DNA of 64,000 bases, from the NCBI RefSeq assembly GCF_000832305.1, contig NZ_CP010537.1, forward strand, positions 1,116,001 through 1,180,000, in the 5' to 3' direction. This DNA comes from Cupriavidus basilensis. GTDB taxonomy: Bacteria > Pseudomonadota > Gammaproteobacteria > Burkholderiales > Burkholderiaceae. The position numbers and the translations under genes are program-made. Numbering within the stretch: position 1 is the stretch's first letter; each line of letters opens with the position of its first letter. Shown here piece after piece: positions 1,736 to 38,921 of the stretch. Below the pieces are notes generated by a model. It was not told the DNA's origin, did not search any database, and saw only the letters and a program-made list of their open reading frames with translations.

Positions 1736-2557
1736 TCAGCTTCCCCCGAACATAAAGCTCGACACGGTGATGCCGCCGGCGAAGTCGTCTTCGTGGTAGA
1801 CGCGCGTGGCAATGTCGTCTTCGGCCGCGCCCACGGCTACCATCAATGGCAACAAGTGCTCTTCTCGCGGATGGGCCTGCCGGGCGGCGGGCGCGCTTTC
1901 CCAGCCCGTTAGCGCGGCAGTGCGCTGCGCTGGGGTGGTTGTCGTCAGCGCTTGCTGGAGCCAGGCATCGAATGCGGCCGATGGCGCTTTCCCGGCTGGG
2001 CCGAATGCGCGCAGGTTGTGATAGCTCAGCCCGCTGCCCACGATGAGGATGCCTTCGTGGCGCAGCGGCGCCAGCGCGCGACCGAGTGCCAGATGCGTTT
2101 GCGGATCGAGCCCGCGCTTGAGCGAGAGCTGCACGGTCGGCATAGCGGCGTCGGGATAGATGGCGGCCATCGGCGCAAACATGCCATGGTCGAAGCCGCG
2201 CAGCGGATCGAGCCGCGCGGCCAGGCCGGCGTCCTCGAGCAAGCCTTGCACGCGCGCGGCGAGCTGCGGTGCGCCCGGTGCCGCGTACTGAATCTGGTAG
2301 GTGTAATCCGGGAAGCCGTAGTAGTCATAGATCATGGGCGGCTTCGGGTTGGCCATGACCGTGAATTCCGGCTCTTCCCAGTGCGCTGAAATCATCAGGA
2401 CGGCCTTGGGTGCAATGCCTGTGCGTTGCACCAGCTGGGGCATCTGCTGCAGCGCGGCCTTGAGCTTGTCGTAGCGGCCGCCCATCTGGTCTTCCATCCA
2501 GGGCCAGGGCCCGCCGCCATGCGAGATGAAGAATGTGGGGAGTGCAGGCGTTGTCAT
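1736..2557 (-). CDS. DODA/LigB-type extradiol ring-cleavage dioxygenase family
   Basis: 273 residues from the ATG at 2557; the open frame upstream overlaps the IclR gene and is not coding. The N-terminus PTFFISHGGGPWPW carries the conserved metal-binding His (about residue 13). Further His residues appear in MISAHWEEPEF, GFDHGMFAPM and REEHLLPLMV. This is the signature of class III extradiol dioxygenases of the 4,5-DOPA dioxygenase (YgiD/DODA) type, at the normal length. It follows the IclR gene by 25 bp and a flavin monooxygenase gene further upstream, so an aromatic hydroxylation plus ring-cleavage operon is plausible. The ring substrate cannot be told from sequence, and YgiD-like proteins can have other roles. 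Confidence 0.88.
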   Translation of the reverse strand: MTTPALPTFFISHGGGPWPWMEDQMGGRYDKLKAALQQMPQLVQRTGIAPKAVLMISAHWEEPEFTVMANPKPPMIYDYYGFPDYTYQIQYAAPGAPQLAARVQGLLEDAGLAARLDPLRGFDHGMFAPMAAIYPDAAMPTVQLSLKRGLDPQTHLALGRALAPLRHEGILIVGSGLSYHNLRAFGPAGKAPSAAFDAWLQQALTTTTPAQRTAALTGWESAPAARQAHPREEHLLPLMVAVGAAEDDIATRVYHEDDFAGGITVSSFMFGGS

Positions 2558-2582
2558 CCGGGCGTCTCCTGTTGACGTGGTG

Positions 2583-3440
2583 TCAGTGTGGGTGGCGCTG
2601 CCCGGCGGCGTAGCCGAGCAGGCCGGACAAATCGCGCGCGGCGCGCTTGACCTCGCGCTCCACGCGTTCGCGAAGATCAGGGGCGCGCTCGAAACGGATG
2701 TCCGGGCCGGCCACGCTGATGGCAGCCACGGTGGCGCCGCTGGCGTCGAACACGGGCGCCGCGCAAGAGTCGATGCCGGGCTCGAACGCCGAGAAGCTCC
2801 AGGCGCAGCCCCGCTCGCGGTCGGCGGCGAGGATGTCGCCCAGGCGGGCATACGTGGCCGGGCTTTGCCCGGTGACGGTCGTCAGCGGTTCCTCGCCGAG
2901 CCTCTCGCGCAGCGTGTCTTCCGGCAGGCCGGCAATCAGCATGCGGCCGGGCGTGGTGAGGTGCGCCGGCACCCGGCTGCCAACCTGGATATTGCTGACC
3001 AGCGAGGTCTGCGGCATATCGCGCAGCAGGTAGAGCACGTCGCCGCCATCCAGCACGCCGAGATAGGCGGAGAGCTGCAGCGATTCGCTCAGGGCAGCCA
3101 GCACGCGCCGCGCAAAGACGGTGAGATCCTTGCCTGCCAGCACCTTTGCGCCCAGCTTGAGCAGAGCGAAGCCTGCCTGGTGGCCGCCCTGCGGCAGCCG
3201 CTCCACCATGCCTTCGTGCTCCAGCGTGGCGAGCAGGCGCATCACGGTGACGCGGTTCACGTCGATGCGCCGGCCGACTTCGCTCAGGTTGGCGGTGGAG
3301 CCGCCTTCCGCGATAAAGCGCAGCAGCCGCATGGCGCGGATCACCGGGCTGACCAGTTGCGTCTTGTCTTCGTCGCCGCCGGGATCGGCGGCATCGCTTG
3401 CGTCGGGCACGGGCTGGTTCAGCCTGGGGTTCTTGCTCAT
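2583..3440 (-). CDS. IclR family transcriptional regulator
   Basis: 285 residues. A disordered acidic N-terminus (about 1-28) is followed by a winged helix-turn-helix (about 30-95: AMRLLRFIAEGGSTANLSEV, then VNRVTVMRLLATLEHEGMVE). The C-terminal IclR effector domain includes SLQLSAYLGVLDGGDVLYLL and the typical RERGCAWSFSAFEPGIDSCA segment. It sits between the FAD monooxygenase gene (48 bp upstream) and the dioxygenase gene (25 bp downstream), all on the minus strand. It probably controls this operon from the inverted repeat near 4709-4727. Effector unknown. Confidence 0.92.
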   Translation of the reverse strand: MSKNPRLNQPVPDASDAADPGGDEDKTQLVSPVIRAMRLLRFIAEGGSTANLSEVGRRIDVNRVTVMRLLATLEHEGMVERLPQGGHQAGFALLKLGAKVLAGKDLTVFARRVLAALSESLQLSAYLGVLDGGDVLYLLRDMPQTSLVSNIQVGSRVPAHLTTPGRMLIAGLPEDTLRERLGEEPLTTVTGQSPATYARLGDILAADRERGCAWSFSAFEPGIDSCAAPVFDASGATVAAISVAGPDIRFERAPDLRERVEREVKRAARDLSGLLGYAAGQRHPH

Positions 3441-3488
3441 CGGTTCCGTGGAAGGGTGGGCGGCGAGGTCAGCCTGCGGACTTGGTGC

Positions 3489-4619
3489 TTAGCCGAGGGC
3501 TACCTGCCAAGCGTTGTAATCGTACACCCAGTCCGCGTTGCCGCCCTCCTTGAGCCAGGCGTTGCTGCGCGAGCCGATCTGGATGCGGCTGGTGCGCTCA
3601 AAGCGCGCAGCCCGGTAGCGTGCGAGCGCGCCGGGGATGTCGTCGCCATTGGCTTCGGCCAGGCACCGCGCCAGTACCACGCCATCCTCGATGGCCATGC
3701 CGGCGCCTTGCGCCATGAAGGGCATCATCGGGTGGCAGGCGTCGCCCATCAGCGCAACGTTGCCGGCCGACCAGGCAGGCAGCGGGTCGCGCACGTAGAG
3801 GGCGGAGATCAGTACGTCGTCGCAGGCATCAAGCAGCGCACGCGCTTCGGCATGGAAGCCAGCGTAGGCTGCGCGCACGTCTTCCACGCGGCCCGGCGTG
3901 GTCCAGGATTCGTTGCGCCAGGCTTCCTGCGCCACCGTGGCGAAGATAAAGATCTCGCGCCCGCGGTTGAGGGGGAAGGTGACGATCTGCGAGGTCGCCT
4001 CCGGGCCCCACCACTTGGTGAAGGCCTGCAGGTTCGGCACGCCGGCAAGGCGCTCGGCGGGCACCACCGCGCGGTAAGCCACCACGCCGGTGAAGACCGG
4101 ATGCTCGGGCCCGAACAGCGCGGTGCGCACGGCCGAGTGGATGCCGTCGGCACCGATCAGCACATCCACGTCTTCCTGCGTGCCATCGGCGAAATGCAGC
4201 GTGGCACCGGCGGCATGCCGCTCGATCTGCGTCGCCTTCTTGCCAAGCTTGACGCAGGCCGCCGGCAGGGCGGCTTCGAGCGCGGTCATCAGGTCGCCGC
4301 GGTGCATGGTGAGTTGCGGCGCGCCGTAGCGGATCTGCGCCTCGTCGGACATGGTCAGCCGCGAAGTCTCCTCGCCGGTGTTCCACACCCGGCTGATGCG
4401 GTGGCTGGGCCGCGCGGCGGTCTCGCGCAATGCCTCGCCCACGCCCAGCCCATCCAGCGCGCGCACGGCATTGGGCGTGAGGTTGATGTCCGCGCCGACC
4501 CGCGCGAAGCGCGAGGCTTGCTCGAACACCACCACGTCCTTGCCGAGCTTACGCAGCGCAATCGCCACAGCGAGTCCGCCGATGCCGGCGCCGTTGATGC
4601 CAATCTTTTGTGAAGCCAT
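3489..4619 (-). CDS. FAD-dependent aromatic-ring monooxygenase (salicylate hydroxylase / NicC-like)
   Basis: 376 residues. N-terminal Rossmann motif GINGAGIGGLAVAIALRKLG (variant GxGxxG, residues 8-27), the central DVDVLIGADGIHSAVR motif of class A flavin monooxygenases, and the second FAD motif NVALMGDACHPMMPFMAQGA. Class A enzymes hydroxylate phenolic or N-heteroaromatic acids with NAD(P)H and O2. Segments such as FTKWWGPE and AQGAGMAIEDGVVLARCL recall 6-hydroxynicotinate 3-monooxygenase and salicylate 1-monooxygenase; the exact substrate is unresolved. It is the first gene of a three-gene operon with IclR and a LigB-type dioxygenase, with a candidate operator about 90-110 bp upstream. Confidence 0.88.
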   Translation of the reverse strand: MASQKIGINGAGIGGLAVAIALRKLGKDVVVFEQASRFARVGADINLTPNAVRALDGLGVGEALRETAARPSHRISRVWNTGEETSRLTMSDEAQIRYGAPQLTMHRGDLMTALEAALPAACVKLGKKATQIERHAAGATLHFADGTQEDVDVLIGADGIHSAVRTALFGPEHPVFTGVVAYRAVVPAERLAGVPNLQAFTKWWGPEATSQIVTFPLNRGREIFIFATVAQEAWRNESWTTPGRVEDVRAAYAGFHAEARALLDACDDVLISALYVRDPLPAWSAGNVALMGDACHPMMPFMAQGAGMAIEDGVVLARCLAEANGDDIPGALARYRAARFERTSRIQIGSRSNAWLKEGGNADWVYDYNAWQVALG

Positions 4620-5776: not shown

Positions 5777-6883
<1,107 letters not shown>

Positions 6884-6964: not shown

Positions 6965-7780
6965 TCAGCGAATGGCGACGCGATGCATTCGGCGCGGTTC
7001 GGGGTGGTAGTCGTTGACCGCGTAGTGCTGCGTGGCAAGGTTGTCCCATACGGCAACCGAGCCTTTTCTCCATCGGAACCGAACCTGCCATTCGGGAACT
7101 TTCGCCAGGCCGCTAAGAAAGGAAATCAACGCACGGCTCTCGTCATTCGTGACGTCGCGAATATGGGTTGTATAGAGCGAATTCACGAAAGCCACCGGTT
7201 TTCCGGTCACGGGATGGTCAAGAACCACCGGCTGCTCCAGAGGCGCATATTTCTCGCGAGCCGCCTTGTACAGCCCACCCGTTGCATCCCGCTTCCTGAG
7301 GTTGTCTGTCAGTGCCGGGGCCTCCCAGTTGTGGACCGCGCGCAGATCGCGCAAGTACATTTGCATGTTCGGAGCCAGCGACTCGAAAGCGGAGGTCATG
7401 CTGGCCCACATGGTGTCACCGCCGGTCTCGGGCACATCCACGGCGTACAGGCATGCACCAGCAGGCGGCGACTCTTGCCAGGTCAGGTCCGCATGCCAGA
7501 TGTCCGTTCCTGTCCGTGTTCCTTGACTGACAAGAAGCTCGACATACGGATTCTCGGGATGCGCGGGAAATGTCGATGAAACCGCTTCCACGCGCCCGAA
7601 GATCTTGGCGAATCGAACCTGCGCTTCAGGCGTCAACTCCTGATCGCGAAAGAAGATCACCTGGCGTTCTGCGAGAACGGCGCGCAGGTCATCGGCACAA
7701 CTGTTGACTTGATCGGCGTCGGCCAGATTGATTCCATGAATCTCGGACCCGATCGCCGGTGTCAGATTGTCGATTTTCAT
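6965..7780 (-). CDS. TauD/TfdA family Fe(II)/2-oxoglutarate-dependent dioxygenase
   Basis: 271 residues, normal family length. The iron-binding HxD is seen in TDIWHADLTWQ (His96, Asp98) and the distal His in RRMHRVAIR (about His266). The N-terminus GSEIHGINLADAD and VIFFRDQELTPEAQVRFAKI are standard for the family. Members hydroxylate next to a heteroatom and can cleave sulfonates, ether-linked aryloxy acids or N/O-methyl groups. It is preceded by a 373-bp gap holding a strong operator shared with the porin and MFS genes, and followed by the formaldehyde dehydrogenase and VOC genes. Substrate is not identifiable from sequence. Confidence 0.9.
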   Translation of the reverse strand: MKIDNLTPAIGSEIHGINLADADQVNSCADDLRAVLAERQVIFFRDQELTPEAQVRFAKIFGRVEAVSSTFPAHPENPYVELLVSQGTRTGTDIWHADLTWQESPPAGACLYAVDVPETGGDTMWASMTSAFESLAPNMQMYLRDLRAVHNWEAPALTDNLRKRDATGGLYKAAREKYAPLEQPVVLDHPVTGKPVAFVNSLYTTHIRDVTNDESRALISFLSGLAKVPEWQVRFRWRKGSVAVWDNLATQHYAVNDYHPEPRRMHRVAIR

Positions 7781-7954
7781 ATGATGTCTCTTCCTTTTGA
7801 TTTAGACGAAGTCCGTGCTGTATGTCGATGATCCGGCGAGCTGGAAAGCGCCAGTCGCGCGACGCGCTGCCAGGACCAAGCGTGGGGCGCAACTTGCGTG
7901 CCGGCTCCTCAGCACTTGTGCCCGACCGGCAATCCGTCTGCGGGCAAACGACTG

Positions 7955-7992
7955 ACTGAGTTTAATTGCCATATGTGGCAATTAAACTCAGT
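7955..7992. promoter_or_regulatory. Operator 1: extended perfect inverted repeat upstream of the TauD-family gene
   Basis: Arms of 17 bp (ACTGAGTTTAATTGCCA and its exact complement) flank a 4-bp spacer TATG. The inner core TTGCCA-TATG-TGGCAA recurs at 13003-13026 and 14673-14696. It is about 175 bp before the dioxygenase start, in the gap between that gene and the TetR gene. The length suggests two overlapping half-site pairs or a cruciform. Likely target of the adjacent TetR protein (inference). Confidence 0.75.
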
Positions 7993-8153
7993 TTAGTGCG
8001 TAACGGGAAGTTCCGTCAAGAGATATTGATTGAGGGGGAGGGGGCTGAGCGGGTTCAGCGAGGTGCTCAACGCGCCAACCGCGGAAGTGGCAAGTGCGCG
8101 AGCGTGCTGAGCGGCAATCCAGGCGCCTTGGCGTGCAGCGTAGCTTTCCAGGC

Positions 8154-8855
8154 TTATGGCTTTGTGCGCTCGGGCTGTTGATCGATCGCGTCCGCGAGCA
8201 TGCGCGAGACGAACTGGAGATAGGCATCTACTTGCTGCTCGCATTCCTCCCCGGTCCCGAAGAGATGATGGAGCAGCGGTTGCGCGCTCGGAATGAATGC
8301 AGACACACTCAGTATCACCAGGTGAAGGAATCGGGCATCGACCTTCGCCCCCTGCGCATCCTCGAGAATCATGTCGGTCAGTTCCAAGCCGCGCTTGGTG
8401 ATGCGCTGCAGCGCGCTTCCCGCAGGGTTCTCTTCGGTAGCGTCCTCCCCGTAGTAGATCTCGCCAAGCGCCAAGCGCTCGAAATACGGATGCTCGCGCA
8501 TGAATTCCAGGCGTAGCAGAAGGCGCTGGTGTACTCGCTCACGCACCGAGCCTTGCATACGCATCACGACTTCCATGCGATCCTGCAATTGCCCCATCAG
8601 GCATTCCGTCACCTCGCGAAGCAAACCGTGGAGATCGCCAAAATAGTAGCGAACCAGCGTTCTGGCCACCCCGGCCTTCGCCGCCACCTCAAGCACCGTG
8701 AGTTGTTCTGGCGCCCTTATCTTCAGCAATTCCACAGTGCTCTGAATGATTGCCTGCTTGCCGACCGTGTCTTCACCTGTTGGTCGCCCGCTGACACGAC
8801 GGCGCGCTTTGTCGGCAGTGGACACGGTACGCTTCAGTGGAATTTTCGTTGCCAT
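8154..8855 (-). CDS. TetR family transcriptional regulator
   Basis: 233 residues from the ATG at 8855 (MATKIPLKRTV). The open frame runs further upstream to 9014, but that part has no homologous feel, so the shorter start is chosen. The TetR helix-turn-helix is at about residues 28-75: QAIIQSTVELLKIRAPEQLT, VLEVAAKAGVARTLVRYYFG. The C-terminal ligand domain is helical and poorly conserved. The gene lies inside the minus-strand cluster between the molybdenum hydroxylase and the TauD gene, and is the best candidate to bind the operator found three times nearby. A partial match, TTGCCATATTGC, overlaps its own start codon but lacks the second arm. Confidence 0.9.
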   Translation of the reverse strand: MATKIPLKRTVSTADKARRRVSGRPTGEDTVGKQAIIQSTVELLKIRAPEQLTVLEVAAKAGVARTLVRYYFGDLHGLLREVTECLMGQLQDRMEVVMRMQGSVRERVHQRLLLRLEFMREHPYFERLALGEIYYGEDATEENPAGSALQRITKRGLELTDMILEDAQGAKVDARFLHLVILSVSAFIPSAQPLLHHLFGTGEECEQQVDAYLQFVSRMLADAIDQQPERTKP

Positions 8856-9172
8856 ATTGCTGGATGTGATCGCGAATCGAGGACGGGCACGGAGGCCAGA
8901 ATACACGGCGTAGCGAGCCTGGATGCCGGATGGGCGTACCTTGCCGGATTCCGGTGCATCGGTGCACGTGTTGGCGTGCAGGAGCGCTCGCGCGCCAAGG
9001 CATTCTATCAACACCGCGACGTGAAGTCTTCATTACTCCGCCCGCGCCGGACGCGCGGGCTCAACGCGGCATGCCTTGCCGGCCCGCCCAGCGAATGCAA
9101 TGGCGGTAAGATCGATGGGGGGGCGGCGCTCATACCGGCTACGTCCCGTAGCCGGCAGCCATACGCGTGGCC
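8856..9172. other. Intergenic region between molybdenum hydroxylase and TetR genes
   Basis: No gene, clear terminator or full copy of the shared operator is visible. It presumably carries the TetR promoter and the end of the hydroxylase transcript. Confidence 0.4.
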
Positions 9173-11419
9173 TCAGACAGACTGAGGCAGGGGCATGGAC
9201 CGGAATCGCGTCCCTGTCGCATGGAACATGGCACTCGCTACGGCCGGCGCCGTCGGTCCGAGCACAACCTCGCCACAGCCCTGGGGCGGCCTGTCACTTT
9301 CAAGAATGGTAACTTCCACGTTCGGCATCTCCGCCAATTGCAGCAGCGGATAGTCGTGGAAGCTACTTTGCCGGATGGCTCCTTTGTCAAAGGTGAGCTC
9401 GCTTTTGAACGTATTGGTCAGCGCAAAGCCAATCCCGCCCTCCATATTGGCCTTGATCAGCCCCGGGTTGACCGCGCGCCCCGCATCGACTCCGCAGACG
9501 GCTCGCTTCAGCTTGACTCGCCCCTGCACGACCTCAAGCTCGATGACCAAAGCGACGTAGGTCTGAAAGCCCTCTCCCCGCCCCGTGTAGACATTGAATG
9601 CCATCCCGCGAAAAACTCCCGGGCCCGCCTCGCGTTCCCATTGCGCGGCCTTCGCTGTCGCATCCAGCACCCTAAGCGCCAGTGGCTGCTCGGCAAGCAG
9701 TTTTCGTCGATATTGGTAATCGTCAGCGCCCGCCGCATGAGCAAGCTCGCTGACGAAGCTCTCCAGGAAAAACACACTTGACGTACTGCCGACACTGCGC
9801 AGGAAGCTCAGCGGAATGGGTTGCTTGACATCGACCGCATCGACGAGGAGATGCGGCACACGATAGATCAGGTCGTATATCGACTCGACCATGGTCTCAT
9901 CCCATCCACCGACCGCGGCCATCTTGTCCTGCTTGATCACACCGTACAGGGACTGGCCGGAAATCCTCGCATGCAAGGCAAGCGGCATCCCGCCATCACC
10001 CAGCACTGCACGAAAGCGGCCTGCGGCACCGGGCCGATAGTATGAGTGCCGCGTGTCATCCTCCCTCGAGCGGATAACCTTGACGGGCTTGCCGACAGCC
10101 TTTGAGGCGGCTGCCGCATGCAACGCGAAGTCAGGCAGGTATTTCCGGCCAAAGCTGCCGCCGAGATAGACTGTGTGGACGGTCACCTTGTCCGGGGGCA
10201 GTCCAAATGCCTTCCCCAGTTCCCCGCGAAGAAAATCCTGTCCCTGGAAGGGACCCCAGGCCTCGATCTCCCCTTCGCGGACATCGACGGTGGCGACGAC
10301 CGGTTCCATGGTGGCATGCGCGACATATGGCGTGTGGTAGTCGGCGGAAACAACGACACGCTTGCCCGGTCCGTTCAGGATTTCTTCCGGGTTTCCGATC
10401 CTTCTCGCCACGGGAGCATCCTTGCTATCAAGCCCCTCGACGAATTGCTTGCGGATCAGGTCGCTCGATGTATTTCGTGCCGCACCGGCGTCGAACTCGA
10501 TATCCAGCGCATCCAGGGCCTGCTTGGCAGTCCAATAGGAATTGGCAACAACGATTACCGTGTTGCGCGTGGGCACCGGCCACAGTGACGTGACCACGAT
10601 GGCCTTCACGCCTTCGCGCTTGCGAATCTCGGCTTCGTTGCGAATGCGCACGATGCTACCCGTCACGCTAGGCGCCATGCGCACCGCGCCGATCAGCATG
10701 CCCGGCACCTCGACATCCATCCCGAAGACCGCACTACCGTCCACTTTCGGCGGTGTGTCTACACGACGGAGGTTCTTGCCGATCAGCGAATGCTCCGAGG
10801 GCACCTTCATCCTCGGATGTGGATTGATGCGCAGTTTGATGGCATCCGCAACCACCTCGCCATAGCCGATGCTGCGCCCGGTTGCGGGGTGAATCACACG
10901 CCCCGTTCGGGTCGTGCATTGGGACGAGCGGACCCCCAGCCGCTGCGCACCCGCGCGCAGCAGCACATCCCGGGCTTGCGCGCCGGCGAGGCGCATTCGC
11001 TCAAAGAAGTAGGTCATGGACATGGAAGCGCCGGTGTATTGCTGCAGCGGCTCGTCCCCGGCATCGTTCCGATATGCGTCTCGCGCAGTGACGAATTTGA
11101 CCGAGATGTTCTCCCAGTCTGCATCCATCTCGTCCGCGAGCACTTGCGGCAATCCTGTATAGATGCCCTGGCCGAACTCACACTGCGACACGCCGATGAT
11201 GGTATGGCCGGATGGCTCGATCCAGATCCAGTCGCTGACCTCGACCTCCGCGGCGGGCGTCCCGGAGTGCTTCTCGGACAATGAGTACACGACCGGTATG
11301 GCCAGGCTTCCTGCCGCGGGGATCGCGAGAAGTGCCACGGCGCTTTTCAGCAAGCGGCGGCGTTGTGGTGACTTCACATCCGAGCTTTCGTTGCTGTCAT
11401 TTCTTTGAAGCGGCGTCAT
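9173..11419 (-). CDS. Molybdopterin-binding large subunit of a xanthine-oxidase-family hydroxylase (IorB-like)
   Basis: 748 residues. A twin-arginine-type N-terminus ([20 protein letters not shown], about residues 19-38) suggests Tat export or membrane anchoring. The body matches the isoquinoline 1-oxidoreductase beta-subunit type: [73 protein letters not shown] and a C-terminal [19 protein letters not shown]. Such enzymes hydroxylate N-heteroaromatic rings or aldehydes using water, passing electrons through a separate 2Fe-2S subunit, whose gene overlaps this one by 23 bp. No cytochrome c domain or separate cytochrome subunit is visible, so the electron acceptor is open. Substrate unknown; N-heterocyclic or aldehyde compounds are the usual range. 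Confidence 0.9.
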
Positions 11420-11843
11420 GGATGGCCTCCCGAATTCGGTGATAAGTCGCGCATCGACACAGGTTCGTCATTGCCTGGTCGATCTGTTCATCTGTAGGTT
11501 TCGGATAGTTTTTCAACAGTGCGGCAGCGGACATGATCATCCCTGACTGACAATAGCCGCACTGCGGTACATCCTTCTCGATCCATGCCAGCTGGATCGG
11601 ATGAGATCGGTTCTTCGACAGTCCTTCAATCGACGTTACGGTTCTGCCGGTAACGTGCTTTACTGGGACCGAGCACGAGCGTACCGGCACGCCATCGAGG
11701 TGTACTGTGCATGCGCCGCACATACCAATACCGCAACCAAACTTCGTGCCCGTCAGCTTGAACTGTTCGCGGATCACCCACAGCAACGGGGTCTCGACGT
11801 CACCGTCGAACGTGACTTGCCTGCCATTGAGGTTGAACTTCAC
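11397..11843 (-). CDS. 2Fe-2S subunit of the molybdenum hydroxylase (IorA/NicA-like)
   Basis: 148 residues from a GTG at 11843 preceded by GGAGGTG, which gives [10 protein letters not shown]; a longer frame to 11948 overlaps the porin gene and is rejected. The N-terminal plant-ferredoxin-like cluster ligands are in [15 protein letters not shown] (Cys38, 43, 46) and RSCSV (Cys58). The C-terminal helical cluster has CGYC (Cys96, 99) and [10 protein letters not shown] (Cys130, 132). All eight Cys are present, so both clusters should form. The stop overlaps the start of the large subunit, indicating translational coupling. It transfers electrons from the molybdenum centre to an unidentified acceptor. 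Confidence 0.95.
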
Positions 11844-11883
11844 CAAACACCTCCACCAAATTTGCGCGCCATCGCAGGCACTT

Positions 11884-12963
11884 TCAGAATGAAGTATGAA
11901 TACCGGCACTAACCACTGACTGGTTACGTCCGGAGGAGATACCCACAACGTTCATTGCCGCGACGCCATCGACCGCATGTTGGTACGTCCACAGCGCGTA
12001 CAACTGCGTGCGCTTCGATAGGTAATACATGCTGCCAAGATTGAGTTGATGCCACTTTGTCCTCTCGAATTTGCTGAACGAGTAACCAATATTGACGGCT
12101 GTTGCAGGAGTCGCTTGCCAGCTCAATCCAAGGTCGGCAGCATTCATCGTGCCCTGGGACATCCCCACTCTTAGTGTCGAGCGCGAATACAGCGCATTGA
12201 CGGAAATCGGCAGGGTCTCCAATCGATAACCGCCACCAATCCCTCCCGCCTTGAATGAATCGATCGGAAGGGCTCTGCCGGCGGCAAGGCCTTGACCCAT
12301 GGCCTGCGCGATTCCGGTTGTGCCATTGATATCAAACGCGCGCCCATTGGCGTCGGTGTATGCAATTGCAAGGTTCAGTCTCGCGCCTGCATACGTGCCC
12401 GCAAAGCTATACGTGCGGTTTGCGCTTCTGTCTCCCGGTACCTCGCCGAGGCCATACATTGCACTGGCCTGCATGCCGCCAAAGACTGGTGTGCGATAGG
12501 TAATCGCATTGTCTACCGGGAACTGACTCGAAAGCCCATCCAGGTTGCCGGGGTGGTACAGATAGAAATTGAACAACTGGTAGCCGTTGCTCCACTGCCC
12601 AAGCTTGTCTGCCGTGAAGTCGACTTGCCTGCCGAGCTTGACGATCCCCAGTTTGCCTTCGAGCCCAATCCATGAAGCACGGTTGAATAGCTTCCCCGCT
12701 GCGATCATCGAACCACTGTCGGTGAGGAAGCCGTTTTCCAACTGGAACAGTGCCTTCATTCCTCCACCGAGGTCCTCTGTTCCGCGGATCCCAAAAAGGT
12801 CTGGCTGGGAGATTCCGGCATCCATGCGCACTGAGCCGTGGCCTTGGATATTGCTGATCCATGGGACGGATTCATCCATGCTTCCATACAGGGTTAGTTG
12901 ACCCTGTGCGAGCGCCGCGTTCACACAACCGAACGTCAGCGCCAAGATAACTCTGAGTTTCAT
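11884..12963 (-). CDS. Gram-negative trimeric porin (Burkholderiales type)
   Basis: 359 residues with a signal peptide ending near ALAQG (residues 1-20). The mature N-terminus [19 protein letters not shown], the [20 protein letters not shown] and [20 protein letters not shown] blocks, and the aromatic C-terminus ([10 protein letters not shown]) are typical of porins related to OmpC/Omp32. It probably allows entry of the cluster substrate across the outer membrane. It is 40 bp upstream of the 2Fe-2S gene, with its own copy of the shared operator 40-63 bp before its start. Confidence 0.95.
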
Positions 12964-13002
12964 TCGATAGCCTTATGTGGAGAATTCGGTCTTCCTTGAG
13001 TC

Positions 13003-13026
13003 GTAATTGCCACAAATGGAAATTAC
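13003..13026. promoter_or_regulatory. Operator 2 upstream of the porin gene
   Basis: GTAATTGCCA-CAAA-TGGAAATTAC has 10-bp arms with one mismatch and matches the core at 7955-7992 and 14673-14696. It lies 40 bp before the porin start, where a repressor would cover the promoter. Confidence 0.7.
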
Positions 13027-13044
13027 TGTCAAAAAAATGCAAGA

Positions 13045-14532
13045 TCAGGGCGTTTGTGGAACCGAGGACGCTTCTTCTAGTGTTCGACCGCTTGTCTCTT
13101 CCCCGAAGAGCCCCACCGCCAACGCCGCGGCAAATGCGACTCCGGCGATTGCGCCAAAAGATGTGTTGAGCGTACCCCTGGCAACGAACCAGCCGATCAT
13201 CGAGGGGCAGACAATGGAAGCAAAGCGCAACATCGCGCTCGACACGCCAACACCCATGGTGCGGATCTGAGTCGGATAGAGCTCTGGCGTATAGACGTAA
13301 CAACCGATAAATGCGGCGGCCGAGAAACCGAATGCCGTGGAAATGCAGAGGGCTGTGGATGCAGCGGTCATCGGCGCGAAAACGATGGGGGCAAGCATCG
13401 CCACGCCCGTGCATAGCCATGTCATGGTCATCCACAACCGACGCCCGAAGCGGTCAATCGCGATAGCGCAGGCCGCAGAGCCGATGATTCCTGCAAGAGA
13501 CGTATATGTTCCAAACTTGAGCGCGGTCGCCAGGTCAACGTGAAACTCTTGCCGATAAATGGTGGGCATCCAGGCGGTAACCCCCGCCGTTACAAAACCG
13601 CCGGCGAACCAAAGGGTGAACAGCACAAGAGTGCGTCGCAGCAAGGGCGGACGGAACAGGCTCTGCCACGAGACTCCGGTTCCCCGCCGTACCGCACTTG
13701 CGTTCGGTTGCGCGGGGATGCCGGGCAGGCTGGGAACATCGACCGTCCGGCAGGATTTCCGGAAGCGATCAAGAGCGGCATCCGCTTCCTGGAAACGTCC
13801 CTTTGACGCTAGCCACCGGGGGGATTCAGGGAGGAAACGGCGCATGCACAGCGCGATCAATGCGGGCAACGCACCGATGAAGAACATGGCCTGCCAGCCC
13901 AGATTCGGGACGGCCCACATGCCGGCCAGGCTGGCAGTAAACAGTCCGATCGGGAAGATCAGTTCATAGAAGAGGACGAAGCGGCCGCGATGGCCGGCCT
14001 TTGCCAACTCATTGATGTAAGTCGCTGCAACTGGCAATTCGCCCCCGAGCCCGAGACCCTGAATGAATCGATAAACCATGAAGCTCACCGGTCCACCCGC
14101 AAAGCCGCATGCCAGACTGCCAAGTGCGAAGATGGCTACCGACAGGCTGGCACAGCGAAGCCGTCCAATCTTGTCCGCGAGATAGGAGAAGCCCAGCGAC
14201 CCGAGAAGCTGACCTAGATATCCAATGGATATGATGTAGCCGACCTGCTCAAGGGACAGGGACCACACCTTGATCAGCACGGGCATCGCGGCAGCAATAG
14301 CGAGCACATCGAAGCCGTCGAAGAAGGTCGCGCTCCCGACAATGACACGCGCGAGCCGGTGCAGCGGCGTGAGTGGCATGGCCTCCACCTGCGCCACGAT
14401 GCGCCCCTCGTTGTCGGCGTTGGCATCGCCAGGTCGCACGCCTGTCGCATCAGGGATAGTACCGTTGGATGCCCGGCAATCAGGGGATAGCCCCAGATCG
14501 CCTTTCGTGATTTTCGTTCCCGATATGTTCAT
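13045..14532 (-). CDS. MFS transporter, aromatic acid:H+ symporter (AAHS)-like
   Basis: 495 residues from the ATG at 14532 (MNISGTKITKG). The frame is open up to 14709, but that would place the start inside the shared operator. After a polar N-terminus of about 55 residues come 12 predicted membrane segments. The AAHS-like motif ATFFDGFDVLAIAAAMPVLI is in helix 1 and the MFS motif A appears as YLADKIGRLRCAS in the loop between helices 2 and 3; FLPESPRWL follows helix 6. AAHS carriers import benzoate-like and heteroaromatic acids. It is the first gene of the minus-strand catabolic cluster, 81 bp before the porin gene. Confidence 0.9.
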   Translation of the reverse strand: MNISGTKITKGDLGLSPDCRASNGTIPDATGVRPGDANADNEGRIVAQVEAMPLTPLHRLARVIVGSATFFDGFDVLAIAAAMPVLIKVWSLSLEQVGYIISIGYLGQLLGSLGFSYLADKIGRLRCASLSVAIFALGSLACGFAGGPVSFMVYRFIQGLGLGGELPVAATYINELAKAGHRGRFVLFYELIFPIGLFTASLAGMWAVPNLGWQAMFFIGALPALIALCMRRFLPESPRWLASKGRFQEADAALDRFRKSCRTVDVPSLPGIPAQPNASAVRRGTGVSWQSLFRPPLLRRTLVLFTLWFAGGFVTAGVTAWMPTIYRQEFHVDLATALKFGTYTSLAGIIGSAACAIAIDRFGRRLWMTMTWLCTGVAMLAPIVFAPMTAASTALCISTAFGFSAAAFIGCYVYTPELYPTQIRTMGVGVSSAMLRFASIVCPSMIGWFVARGTLNTSFGAIAGVAFAAALAVGLFGEETSGRTLEEASSVPQTP

Positions 14533-14672
14533 AACTATCCCAACAGAATCAAAGTTAAACCGTCTGACAACACCAGGGCACTTGCCAGCTATGCCCGACT
14601 CAAATGCGCTCGGATGTGAGCCTTCGTCGACCTGCTGGCACCTCGCAATGCTGCCGATTTCAGCGCGCGCGC

Positions 14673-14696
14673 TTAATTGCCATATGTGGCAATAAT
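14673..14696. promoter_or_regulatory. Operator 3 upstream of the MFS gene
   Basis: TTAATTGCCA-TATG-TGGCAATAAT repeats the core and the same TATG spacer as the site at 7955-7992. It lies about 140 bp before the MFS start and marks the right edge of the regulon; immediately beyond it begins IS110 remnant DNA. Confidence 0.7.
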
Positions 14697-14756
14697 AGGT
14701 GTTGGGCATTGACTTTATCTGTAGGGGTTTTCCTCTACGGGGTATTGGAATGGAAG

Positions 14757-14856
14757 GGACTTCCCCGTCGCAAAGTTGCGGTGGAAGCCGCCGGTTGGCA
14801 CCGAAGCGCCATGATGGCGTGTCTAAACTGCATCACAACCAACGAAGGGGAAGTCC
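14757..14856 (+). mobile_element. Probable left-end non-coding part of an IS110-family remnant
   Basis: GGACTTCCCC at 14757-14766 and its perfect complement GGGGAAGTCC at 14847-14856 bracket the stretch just before the transposase start. IS110 elements keep a structured non-coding end that encodes the bridge RNA; whether any of that survives here cannot be judged by eye. Confidence 0.4.
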
Positions 14857-15000
14857 ATGGCTATCGCTACCGTTGGAATCGATCTCGCCAAGAGGGTGCT
14901 GCCATTCATGGCGTCGACGCGGCCGGCAAGGTGGTGCTGGTCAAGCCGAAGGTCGCGCGCGAAGCGACTCATGCAACTGCGAGGGAGCGGCCCCACGAAC
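14857..15000 (+). pseudogene. IS110-family transposase, N-terminal remnant with frameshift
   Basis: The start MAIATVGIDLAK is the DEDD-domain opening of IS110-family transposases. After about 14 codons the homologous reading continues in another frame as HGVDAAGKVVLVKPKVAR, so an indel has broken the gene. Beyond about 15000 no recognisable transposase remains, against a normal length of some 340 residues. The remnant lies between the shared-operator MFS gene and the XRE gene and marks an old insertion at the cluster border. Confidence 0.75.
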
Positions 15001-15062
15001 TCTCGCGCCGATGCCCGGCTTGTTCGTGCGGTTGGGCCTCCCGAGCCGACTGGTGTTGACGC

Positions 15063-37754: not shown

Positions 37755-38921
37755 ATGAACTTCGTACTGGAAGACGAGCACCAGATGCTCAAGGATCTGG
37801 TGGCGCGCTTTGTGCGTGAGCAGTTGATCCCGCTCGAAGCGGGCGTGCTGGCCCGCGAGGCAGAGGGCGGCCAGCTTACGCTGTTGCCGCAGGAGCAGGA
37901 CAAGCTGGACGGACTCTCGCGTGAGCTGGGCCTGTGGGGCCTGGATGCGCCGGCCGAGATGGGCGGCGCCGACTTGCCAGTGGTGGCCATGGTCGGCGTC
38001 AACGAGGAGCTGGGCAAGACCGTCACCCCCTACGACCTGCCGCCCGATTCGCCGAACCTGCGCATGCTGCTCAAGACCGCCGACGCGGCCCAGCGAGCGC
38101 GCTACCTGGAACCGTACGCGCGCGGCGAGACCATCTCCGCCATCGCCATTTCCGAGCCCGGTGCCGGCGGCGACCCGGCCATGATGACCACCCGTGCCGA
38201 ACGCGACGGCGACGACTGGGTGCTCAACGGCCGCAAGATCTGGATCAGCCGCGCTGCCCGCGCCGACTGGACCATCGTGATGGCCGTGACCGACAAGGCG
38301 CGCGGCGCCCGCGGCGGCATCTCCGCGTTTCTGGTCGACCGTGGCACGCCCGGCTTCAAGGTGGAACGGCGCATCCCCATGATCGGCGGCGCCTCCACCT
38401 ACGAGGTGGTGCTGGAGGACTGCCGCGTTGCGCACACGCAGCTGCTCGGCGTGCAAGGCCAGGGCTTCGCGCCGATGCAGGCACGGCTTTCCAGCCGGCG
38501 CGTGCAGATGGCGGCCTGGTGCATTGGCCGCGCCCAGCGCGCGCTGGACATGCTGTGCGAGTACGCGCCGCAGCGCCGGACCTTCGGCGCCGCGCTGGCG
38601 GACCGGCAGGCAATCCAGTGGTGGGTGGCCGATGCCGCCACCCGCATCCACGCCTGTCGCCTGATGACTTACGAGGCCGCGGCACGCATTGACGCCGGCG
38701 ACGAGGCGCGTACCCAGGTCTCGATGATCAAGGTATTCGCCACCGAGATGGCCTGGGACGTGATCGACCATGCCATGCAGGCCTTTGGCGCGATGGGCAT
38801 GACCAAGGAAATGCCGTTGCAGCAGATGGCCAACGAGACGCGGTTGATGCGCATCTACGAAGGCCCGTCCGAAGTGCACCGATGGGTTATCGCGCGGGAT
38901 CTGCTTGGCCTCAAGCGTTAG
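37755..38921 (+). CDS. Acyl-CoA dehydrogenase
   Basis: 388 residues with an AAGGAGA ribosome binding site 9 bp upstream. ISAIAISEPGAGGDPAMMTT and WVLNGRKIWISRAARADWTI are FAD-binding elements; the C-terminus MQAFGAMGMTKEMPLQQMAN then RIYEGPSEVHRWVIARDLLG is the family signature. It desaturates the CoA thioester, feeding the enoyl-CoA hydratase. Third gene of the IclR-controlled operon. Confidence 0.94.
   Translation: MNFVLEDEHQMLKDLVARFVREQLIPLEAGVLAREAEGGQLTLLPQEQDKLDGLSRELGLWGLDAPAEMGGADLPVVAMVGVNEELGKTVTPYDLPPDSPNLRMLLKTADAAQRARYLEPYARGETISAIAISEPGAGGDPAMMTTRAERDGDDWVLNGRKIWISRAARADWTIVMAVTDKARGARGGISAFLVDRGTPGFKVERRIPMIGGASTYEVVLEDCRVAHTQLLGVQGQGFAPMQARLSSRRVQMAAWCIGRAQRALDMLCEYAPQRRTFGAALADRQAIQWWVADAATRIHACRLMTYEAAARIDAGDEARTQVSMIKVFATEMAWDVIDHAMQAFGAMGMTKEMPLQQMANETRLMRIYEGPSEVHRWVIARDLLGLKR

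Follow-up and report, generated by a model that had tools for sequence, protein, structure and literature searches.

A predicted TetR operator at three sites of a catabolic and uptake locus in Cupriavidus basilensis and its recurrence in related bacteria

CymR, a TetR-type repressor of p-cymene and cumate catabolism, has operators before more than one catabolic and transport unit. QacR, which controls a multidrug pump, acts on qacA through a long inverted repeat overlapping the transcription start, and the operator of RutR (pyrimidine degradation) has CCA...TGG arms. For Streptomyces, the available text of a survey of TetR-family proteins describes repressors that control adjacent enzyme or transporter genes via short intergenic sites, with footprints of 15–48 bp (PMC3511530). 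We have analyzed a 64-kb stretch of Cupriavidus basilensis DNA (the window) in which an earlier note had proposed that three copies of one operator define a local TetR regulon. Our analysis indicates that the three palindromes are very probably the operators of the TetR protein encoded among them, which would act as the repressor of a local regulon serving the use of one compound. A literature search on this system or its operator gave nothing recognisable as this regulon among the papers listed.

The genes concerned are all read from the minus strand, the MFS gene coming first, followed by porin, iorA, iorB, tetR, tauD and frmA (Table 1). O3 precedes the MFS gene, O2 precedes porin-iorA-iorB, and O1 is found between tetR and tauD, with tauD-frmA behind it. 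As the earlier note had it, the tetR gene lies within the interval and the sites stand in front of transport or catabolic genes of the same strand (dioxygenase, porin, MFS); this pairing holds, but each site probably controls an operon instead of the single gene named there. The regulator has the TetR_N helix-turn-helix domain and an all-helical fold with a C-terminal ligand and dimer domain (AlphaFold model with the TetR fold, pLDDT 83), and the palindromic operator near the own gene, another trait of the family, is present as a prediction from the DNA. A nearly invariant RxxGRP stretch before the helix-turn-helix ends a low-confidence segment of the model, and our guess would be that this arm contacts the AATT flanks of the operator. 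FrmA exceeds the TIGR02818 equivalog cut-off. The domains and related solved structures of the IorA- and IorB-like proteins, named after isoquinoline 1-oxidoreductase IorAB, are those of a two-subunit Mo/[2Fe-2S] enzyme; the best solved relative of the IorB-like subunit is an aldehyde dehydrogenase large subunit (8gy3), and both subunits scored below the cut-offs of all NCBIfam models listed. At 14857–15060, where a transposase remnant had been suspected, Pfam gave nothing. Genes for an IclR regulator (2583–3440), a FAD monooxygenase and a DODA-type dioxygenase follow the regulon (1736–4619); none of the three had a match in the 20.7-kb stretches of Cupriavidus numazuensis and Cupriavidus pinatubonensis.

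Table 1. Features of the tetR locus, in positions of the window
Feature	Position	Strand	Remarks
Predicted operator O1	7955..7992, core 7964–7983	-	38-bp perfect inverted repeat between tetR and tauD; core to tauD ATG 183 bp
Predicted operator O2	13005..13024	-	Upstream of porin-iorA-iorB; core to porin ATG 41 bp
Predicted operator O3	14675..14694	-	Upstream of MFS transporter; core to MFS ATG 142 bp; overlaps TATTAT -10-like hexamer
Sigma-70-like promoter TTGACG-18-TAAACT	7990..8019	-	-10 overlaps left edge of O1
GGAAAACCCCTACAG block	14719..14733	-	Upstream of MFS promoter; identical in three Cupriavidus, surrounding DNA diverged
TetR-family regulator, 233 aa	8154..8855	-	Predicted DNA-binding repressor; PF00440 24.9 bits, cut-off 24
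TauD/TfdA-family 2-oxoglutarate-dependent dioxygenase	6965..7780	-	PF02668 187 bits
frmA, S-(hydroxymethyl)glutathione dehydrogenase	5777..6883	-	Extra copy behind tauD; TIGR02818 630.5 bits, cut-off 543.95
IorB-like molybdopterin-binding subunit, molybdenum hydroxylase	9173..11419	-	PF02738, PF20256
IorA-like [2Fe-2S] subunit	11397..11843	-	PF01799, PF00111
Outer-membrane porin	11884..12963	-	PF13609 132 bits
MFS transporter, nearest aromatic acid/H+ symporter subfamily	13045..14532	-	PF07690; TIGR00895 244 bits, below cut-off 419

The core, AATTGCCA-N4-TGGCAATT, has three matches within the tetR locus, all of them where the earlier note had placed them. O1 is an exact match inside a 17+4+17 perfect inverted repeat, and O2 (TGGAAATT) and O3 (TGGCAATA) have one mismatch each; the note had seen the first of these mismatches and overlooked the second. 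With up to 3 mismatches there were four matches in the window (the fourth, with 3 mismatches, at 37972) against 0.23 expected, a number that none of 100 shuffles reached. Over the whole genome (8,421,483 bases in 2 contigs), the only matches at up to 2 mismatches were O1–O3, and the reversed pattern used as a control had none. Assuming independent bases at 64% G+C, the expectation per genome from composition is ~0.0003 exact and ~0.02 one-mismatch matches, and the chance of three random matches inside one 6.7-kb span is ~2e-6. The whole-genome scan rules out chance or a genome-wide repeat, and it gave none of the many unrelated copies that the earlier note had named as evidence against its reading. 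The same scan found no core site directly upstream of tetR itself. A looser 14-letter pattern, ATTNCCANNNNTGGNAAT, has three exact matches in this genome, all at this locus, and 11 further one-mismatch matches elsewhere.

We have examined TetR orthologues of 55–79% identity in nine other genomes from at least four genera; protein database relatives of TetR numbered 35 among the matches listed (the window's own included), and the comparison of contexts covers ten genomes. All nine had one to three copies of the motif near catabolic or transport genes, the one of Ramlibacter being degenerate, and the flanking DNA and the first oxygenase varied among them. Counting the window's genome, a TetR of at least 55% identity goes together with one to three motif copies at its locus in 10/10 examined genomes, which lends support to the local regulon of the earlier note. 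From the sequence, number and position of the sites, and from their recurrence beside tetR in at least four genera, we infer binding, repression and induction by this TetR.

The closest loci are those of C. numazuensis (L004) and C. pinatubonensis HN-2 (L005), where the genes follow in the same order and each of the three positions has its site. Their proteins are 76–90% identical to those of the window, frmA aside, and the intergenic DNA is largely diverged around the kept cores. O2 and O3 are conserved in these two other Cupriavidus, and a site at the O1 position is found also in Paraburkholderia. The GGAAAACCCCTACAG block has one exact match in each of the three Cupriavidus genomes and is a possible activator site. 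In the window, the tauD leader (7781–7954) exceeds that of C. numazuensis and C. pinatubonensis by ~150 bp (183 vs 35 bp from core to ATG).

Other relatives keep the sites over rearranged gene contents. In Paraburkholderia antibiotica (L052; tetR 67% and tauD 80% identical) three sites are distributed among rearranged units: one precedes tauD, one an MFS-porin unit, at 283 bp from the ATG of the MFS gene, and the third has an AraC gene on one side and a flavin monooxygenase/flavin reductase pair on the other. This third site is the nearest to the flavin monooxygenase, at ~540 bp from the start of that gene, and may belong to the divergent AraC gene. No iorAB match was found in this 14.9-kb stretch; an SfnG/RutA-like flavin monooxygenase and a RutF-like reductase (L052, 6736–8424) occupy the place where other loci carry IorAB. 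Two genomes of one genus of another family (G527 and G993) have two sites each in front of porin-iorA-iorB-tauD-tctC. Three Pigmentiphaga genomes have one site, with ACC/GGT arms, between tetR and tauD, and in the two whose genes were listed a VanA-like Rieske gene comes first behind it (Rieske/TauD cluster). In Ramlibacter a degenerate site, with three mismatches to the degenerate core, precedes Rieske-tauD-tctC. The ~20-kb stretches of Pigmentiphaga and Ramlibacter had no iorAB match.

In a sample of the family, a site at up to 1 mismatch was present in 24 of 398 genomes and two or more in four (G000, G296, G341 and G344). Clustered sites were found only in G000, G296 and G341, the three Cupriavidus with the closest TetR; those of G344 are 480 kb apart. 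G320 (TetR 67% identical) is absent from this count because its sites have 2 mismatches to the pattern. TetR itself was detected in 6 of the 398 genomes (E ≤1e-30). TetR and TauD go together: in one family sample TetR was present in 2/369 (E ≤1e-30) and TauD in 2/329 (E ≤1e-90), the same two genomes. Neither TauD (at 1e-60) nor TetR (at 1e-20) had a match among 72,556 plasmid records; in a separate listing, a 56%-identical TauD is named as from a Sphingomonas plasmid. The looser pattern has 19 listed exact matches over ten genomes (G243 among them; the rows of Ramlibacter, the eleventh, set aside), and 16 of these fall in a TetR locus.

More distant TetR proteins were kept apart from the site count, namely those of L010–L014 (27–39% identity), G243 (40–41%) and G275 (34–36%), and G316 and G326 (24–28%) from the comparison altogether. 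No motif at up to 3 mismatches was found in L011–L014, and L010 (TetR 27%) had one 3-mismatch match ~1 kb from tetR. G275 had no site within 2 mismatches of the degenerate core. In G243, also a Cupriavidus, a palindrome of other sequence, AATTCCCAATAGTAGGAATT, stands between tetR and a Rieske oxygenase gene (L051, 7856–7875), likely the mark of a sister regulon with a shifted operator. The LVRYYF of the recognition helix is kept in 10 of 11 aligned TetR relatives, G243 having LIRYYF, and comparison of the helix variants (TLVRYYF/ALVRYYF) with those of the motif gave no clean covariation.

This distribution bears on whether the palindrome could be bound by a regulator encoded elsewhere, tetR being a mere neighbour. 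Binding by TetR is read here from sequence, and other regulator genes are near, the IclR gene in the window and the AraC gene in Paraburkholderia. But no IclR relative was found in the 20.7-kb stretches of C. numazuensis and C. pinatubonensis, although all three sites are kept there; across the ten loci, with partial gene annotation, the regulator gene identified every time is tetR; and the clustered sites of the family sample go with a close TetR. We consider an outside regulator improbable.

Aligned sites gave the refined consensus AATTnCCAYWWRTGGnAATT, with positions 2–4, 7, 8, 13–15, 17 and 19 invariant over 19 tabulated sites; a twentieth, from the third Pigmentiphaga genome and identical to two tabulated ones, was left out of the table. 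The spacer begins with Y and ends with R in 19/19, a post hoc refinement over sites of which 14 are distinct, so that the N4 of the earlier note is constrained. Instead of the 20-bp motif with a free centre that had been described, the operator appears longer and its centre less free. The tauD/Rieske site has outer symmetric arms: the window and one Pigmentiphaga share CTGA...TCAG, the tauD sites of C. numazuensis and C. pinatubonensis have CTGCC...GGCAG, and a further Pigmentiphaga, like Paraburkholderia, shows the left CTGA alone.

Only one promoter-like match, TTGACG-18-TAAACT, was found in 7700–14800. Shuffles average 2.4, and its weight therefore rests on the recurrence at the same offset in relatives. 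TTGAC(G/T) and TA(A/G/T)(A/C)CT, with the -10 ending ~6 bp before the core, recur at the TauD/Rieske sites of three Cupriavidus, two Pigmentiphaga and Paraburkholderia; in Ramlibacter TTGACA is kept and the -10 is poorer. With the promoter running up to the operator, transcription of tauD would start within O1, at a point that the repressor, when bound, would cover. The TATTAT hexamer overlaps the edge of the MFS-site core in the three Cupriavidus. No convincing -35/-10 pair was found for porin or MFS, the porin promoters being the less clear. Nothing terminator-like was called in the stretch from iorB to tetR, so that tetR may be read from the O2 promoter.

These positions suggest how the regulon could work. 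When the inducer is absent, TetR, as one dimer or as two where the site has its longer form, would occupy the transcription start in front of tauD-frmA, porin-iorA-iorB and the MFS gene and block initiation. It would be freed from the operators by a pathway substrate or intermediate, and release would switch on together entry through the outer membrane, uptake through the inner membrane, oxidation and formaldehyde disposal. If tetR is co-transcribed with porin-iorAB, as it may be, negative feedback would follow. TetR might also bind and activate, or have a dual role; AtrA, one TetR-family protein of the Streptomyces set in the available text of the survey, activated its neighbour (PMC3511530). 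At O1 and O3, however, the site overlaps the -10 or the expected start and should block RNA polymerase, and we give activation little credence. That the 38-bp repeat, with its perfect 17-bp arms between two same-strand genes, is an RNA hairpin (a terminator or a 5' UTR element) was rejected as highly improbable, since no terminator-like site was called there, O2 and O3 share the core of O1 and lack its long arms, and the sites lie upstream of genes in several genera, over likely promoters.

With a TetR repressor regulon as the preferred reading, the enzymes give some indication of what is degraded. Taurine can be discarded as the substrate of TauD: the protein scores 242.3 bits against the taurine dioxygenase equivalog PRK09553 (cut-off 313), and in the alignment with 1gqw His70 and Tyr73, which contact the taurine sulfonate, are replaced by Ser and Phe. 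The likeness to taurine dioxygenase is one of fold family, with the iron-binding HxD...H and the C-terminal arginines aligned. The frmA of the window has a second copy, 99.6% identical over the gene, at G000:C2:1782874–1783977. In C. pinatubonensis and C. numazuensis, too, tauD is followed by an additional frmA, together with frmB. This linked frmA is 98.8% and 97.5% identical, respectively, to another copy of its own genome and 89.5% and 88.8% to the linked copy of the window, a pattern to be expected from repeated duplication or gene conversion. In Paraburkholderia, the frmB close to tauD may be the ordinary copy. Among solved structures, the Rieske enzyme of Ramlibacter has dicamba O-demethylase (217 bits) second to a Rieske protein at 239. 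The flavin enzyme of Paraburkholderia has its nearest likenesses in dimethylsulfone monooxygenase and RutA, with scores far short of either cut-off. In opium poppy, according to the available text of one study, 2-oxoglutarate oxygenases O-demethylate and release formaldehyde (PMC4879150).

The extra frmA behind tauD and the demethylase-like substitutes hint at formaldehyde-releasing chemistry. A methylated substrate would agree with the frmA linkage, the Rieske and flavin likenesses and the poppy oxygenases; since the linkage to tauD was seen in Cupriavidus only, we rate this clearly below an even chance. That TauD itself acts on the methyl group, releasing formaldehyde, is a weaker suggestion than binding and repression by TetR. 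Put together, and as a tentative and rather doubtful reading, TetR and TauD might be the constant elements of a so far undescribed module that breaks down a methylated (hetero)aromatic compound, TauD being a bacterial 2-oxoglutarate-dependent demethylase and the dedicated FrmA removing the formaldehyde. For the first oxidation, a molybdenum hydroxylase, a dicamba-demethylase-like Rieske oxygenase and a flavin monooxygenase could replace one another, and gaining the common operator would be enough to bring each of them into the module. If TauD is a demethylase, a catabolic role would be added to proteins usually annotated as taurine dioxygenase. An uncharacterised TetR gains a concrete predicted operator, a list of predicted targets and a position relative to a promoter. 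The constancy of regulator, operator and TauD while the other enzymes change gives a handle on the pathway, and genes of equivalent function might be located through the operator in several genera.

Compared with the described systems, the targets here are catabolic and uptake genes in place of the pump of QacR, whose structures are among the fold matches of this TetR with tied ranks, indicating the same fold without special kinship. RutR, also among the tied matches, is 18% identical in the fold alignments and has other gene content; the RutA- and RutF-like enzymes of the Paraburkholderia regulon score well below the RutA and RutF cut-offs. With respect to CymR, the enzymes, operator and substrate are others. 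The Streptomyces survey, in its available text, deals with divergent neighbours, whereas the Cupriavidus tetR is co-directional with its predicted targets, and three separate units under one operator also set the locus apart from the local repressors described there (PMC3511530). Local TetR regulons are already well known from that work; the present locus, whose reading as such a regulon is well supported by the comparison of loci, stands out by an unusually clear predicted operator and apparently exchangeable enzymes.
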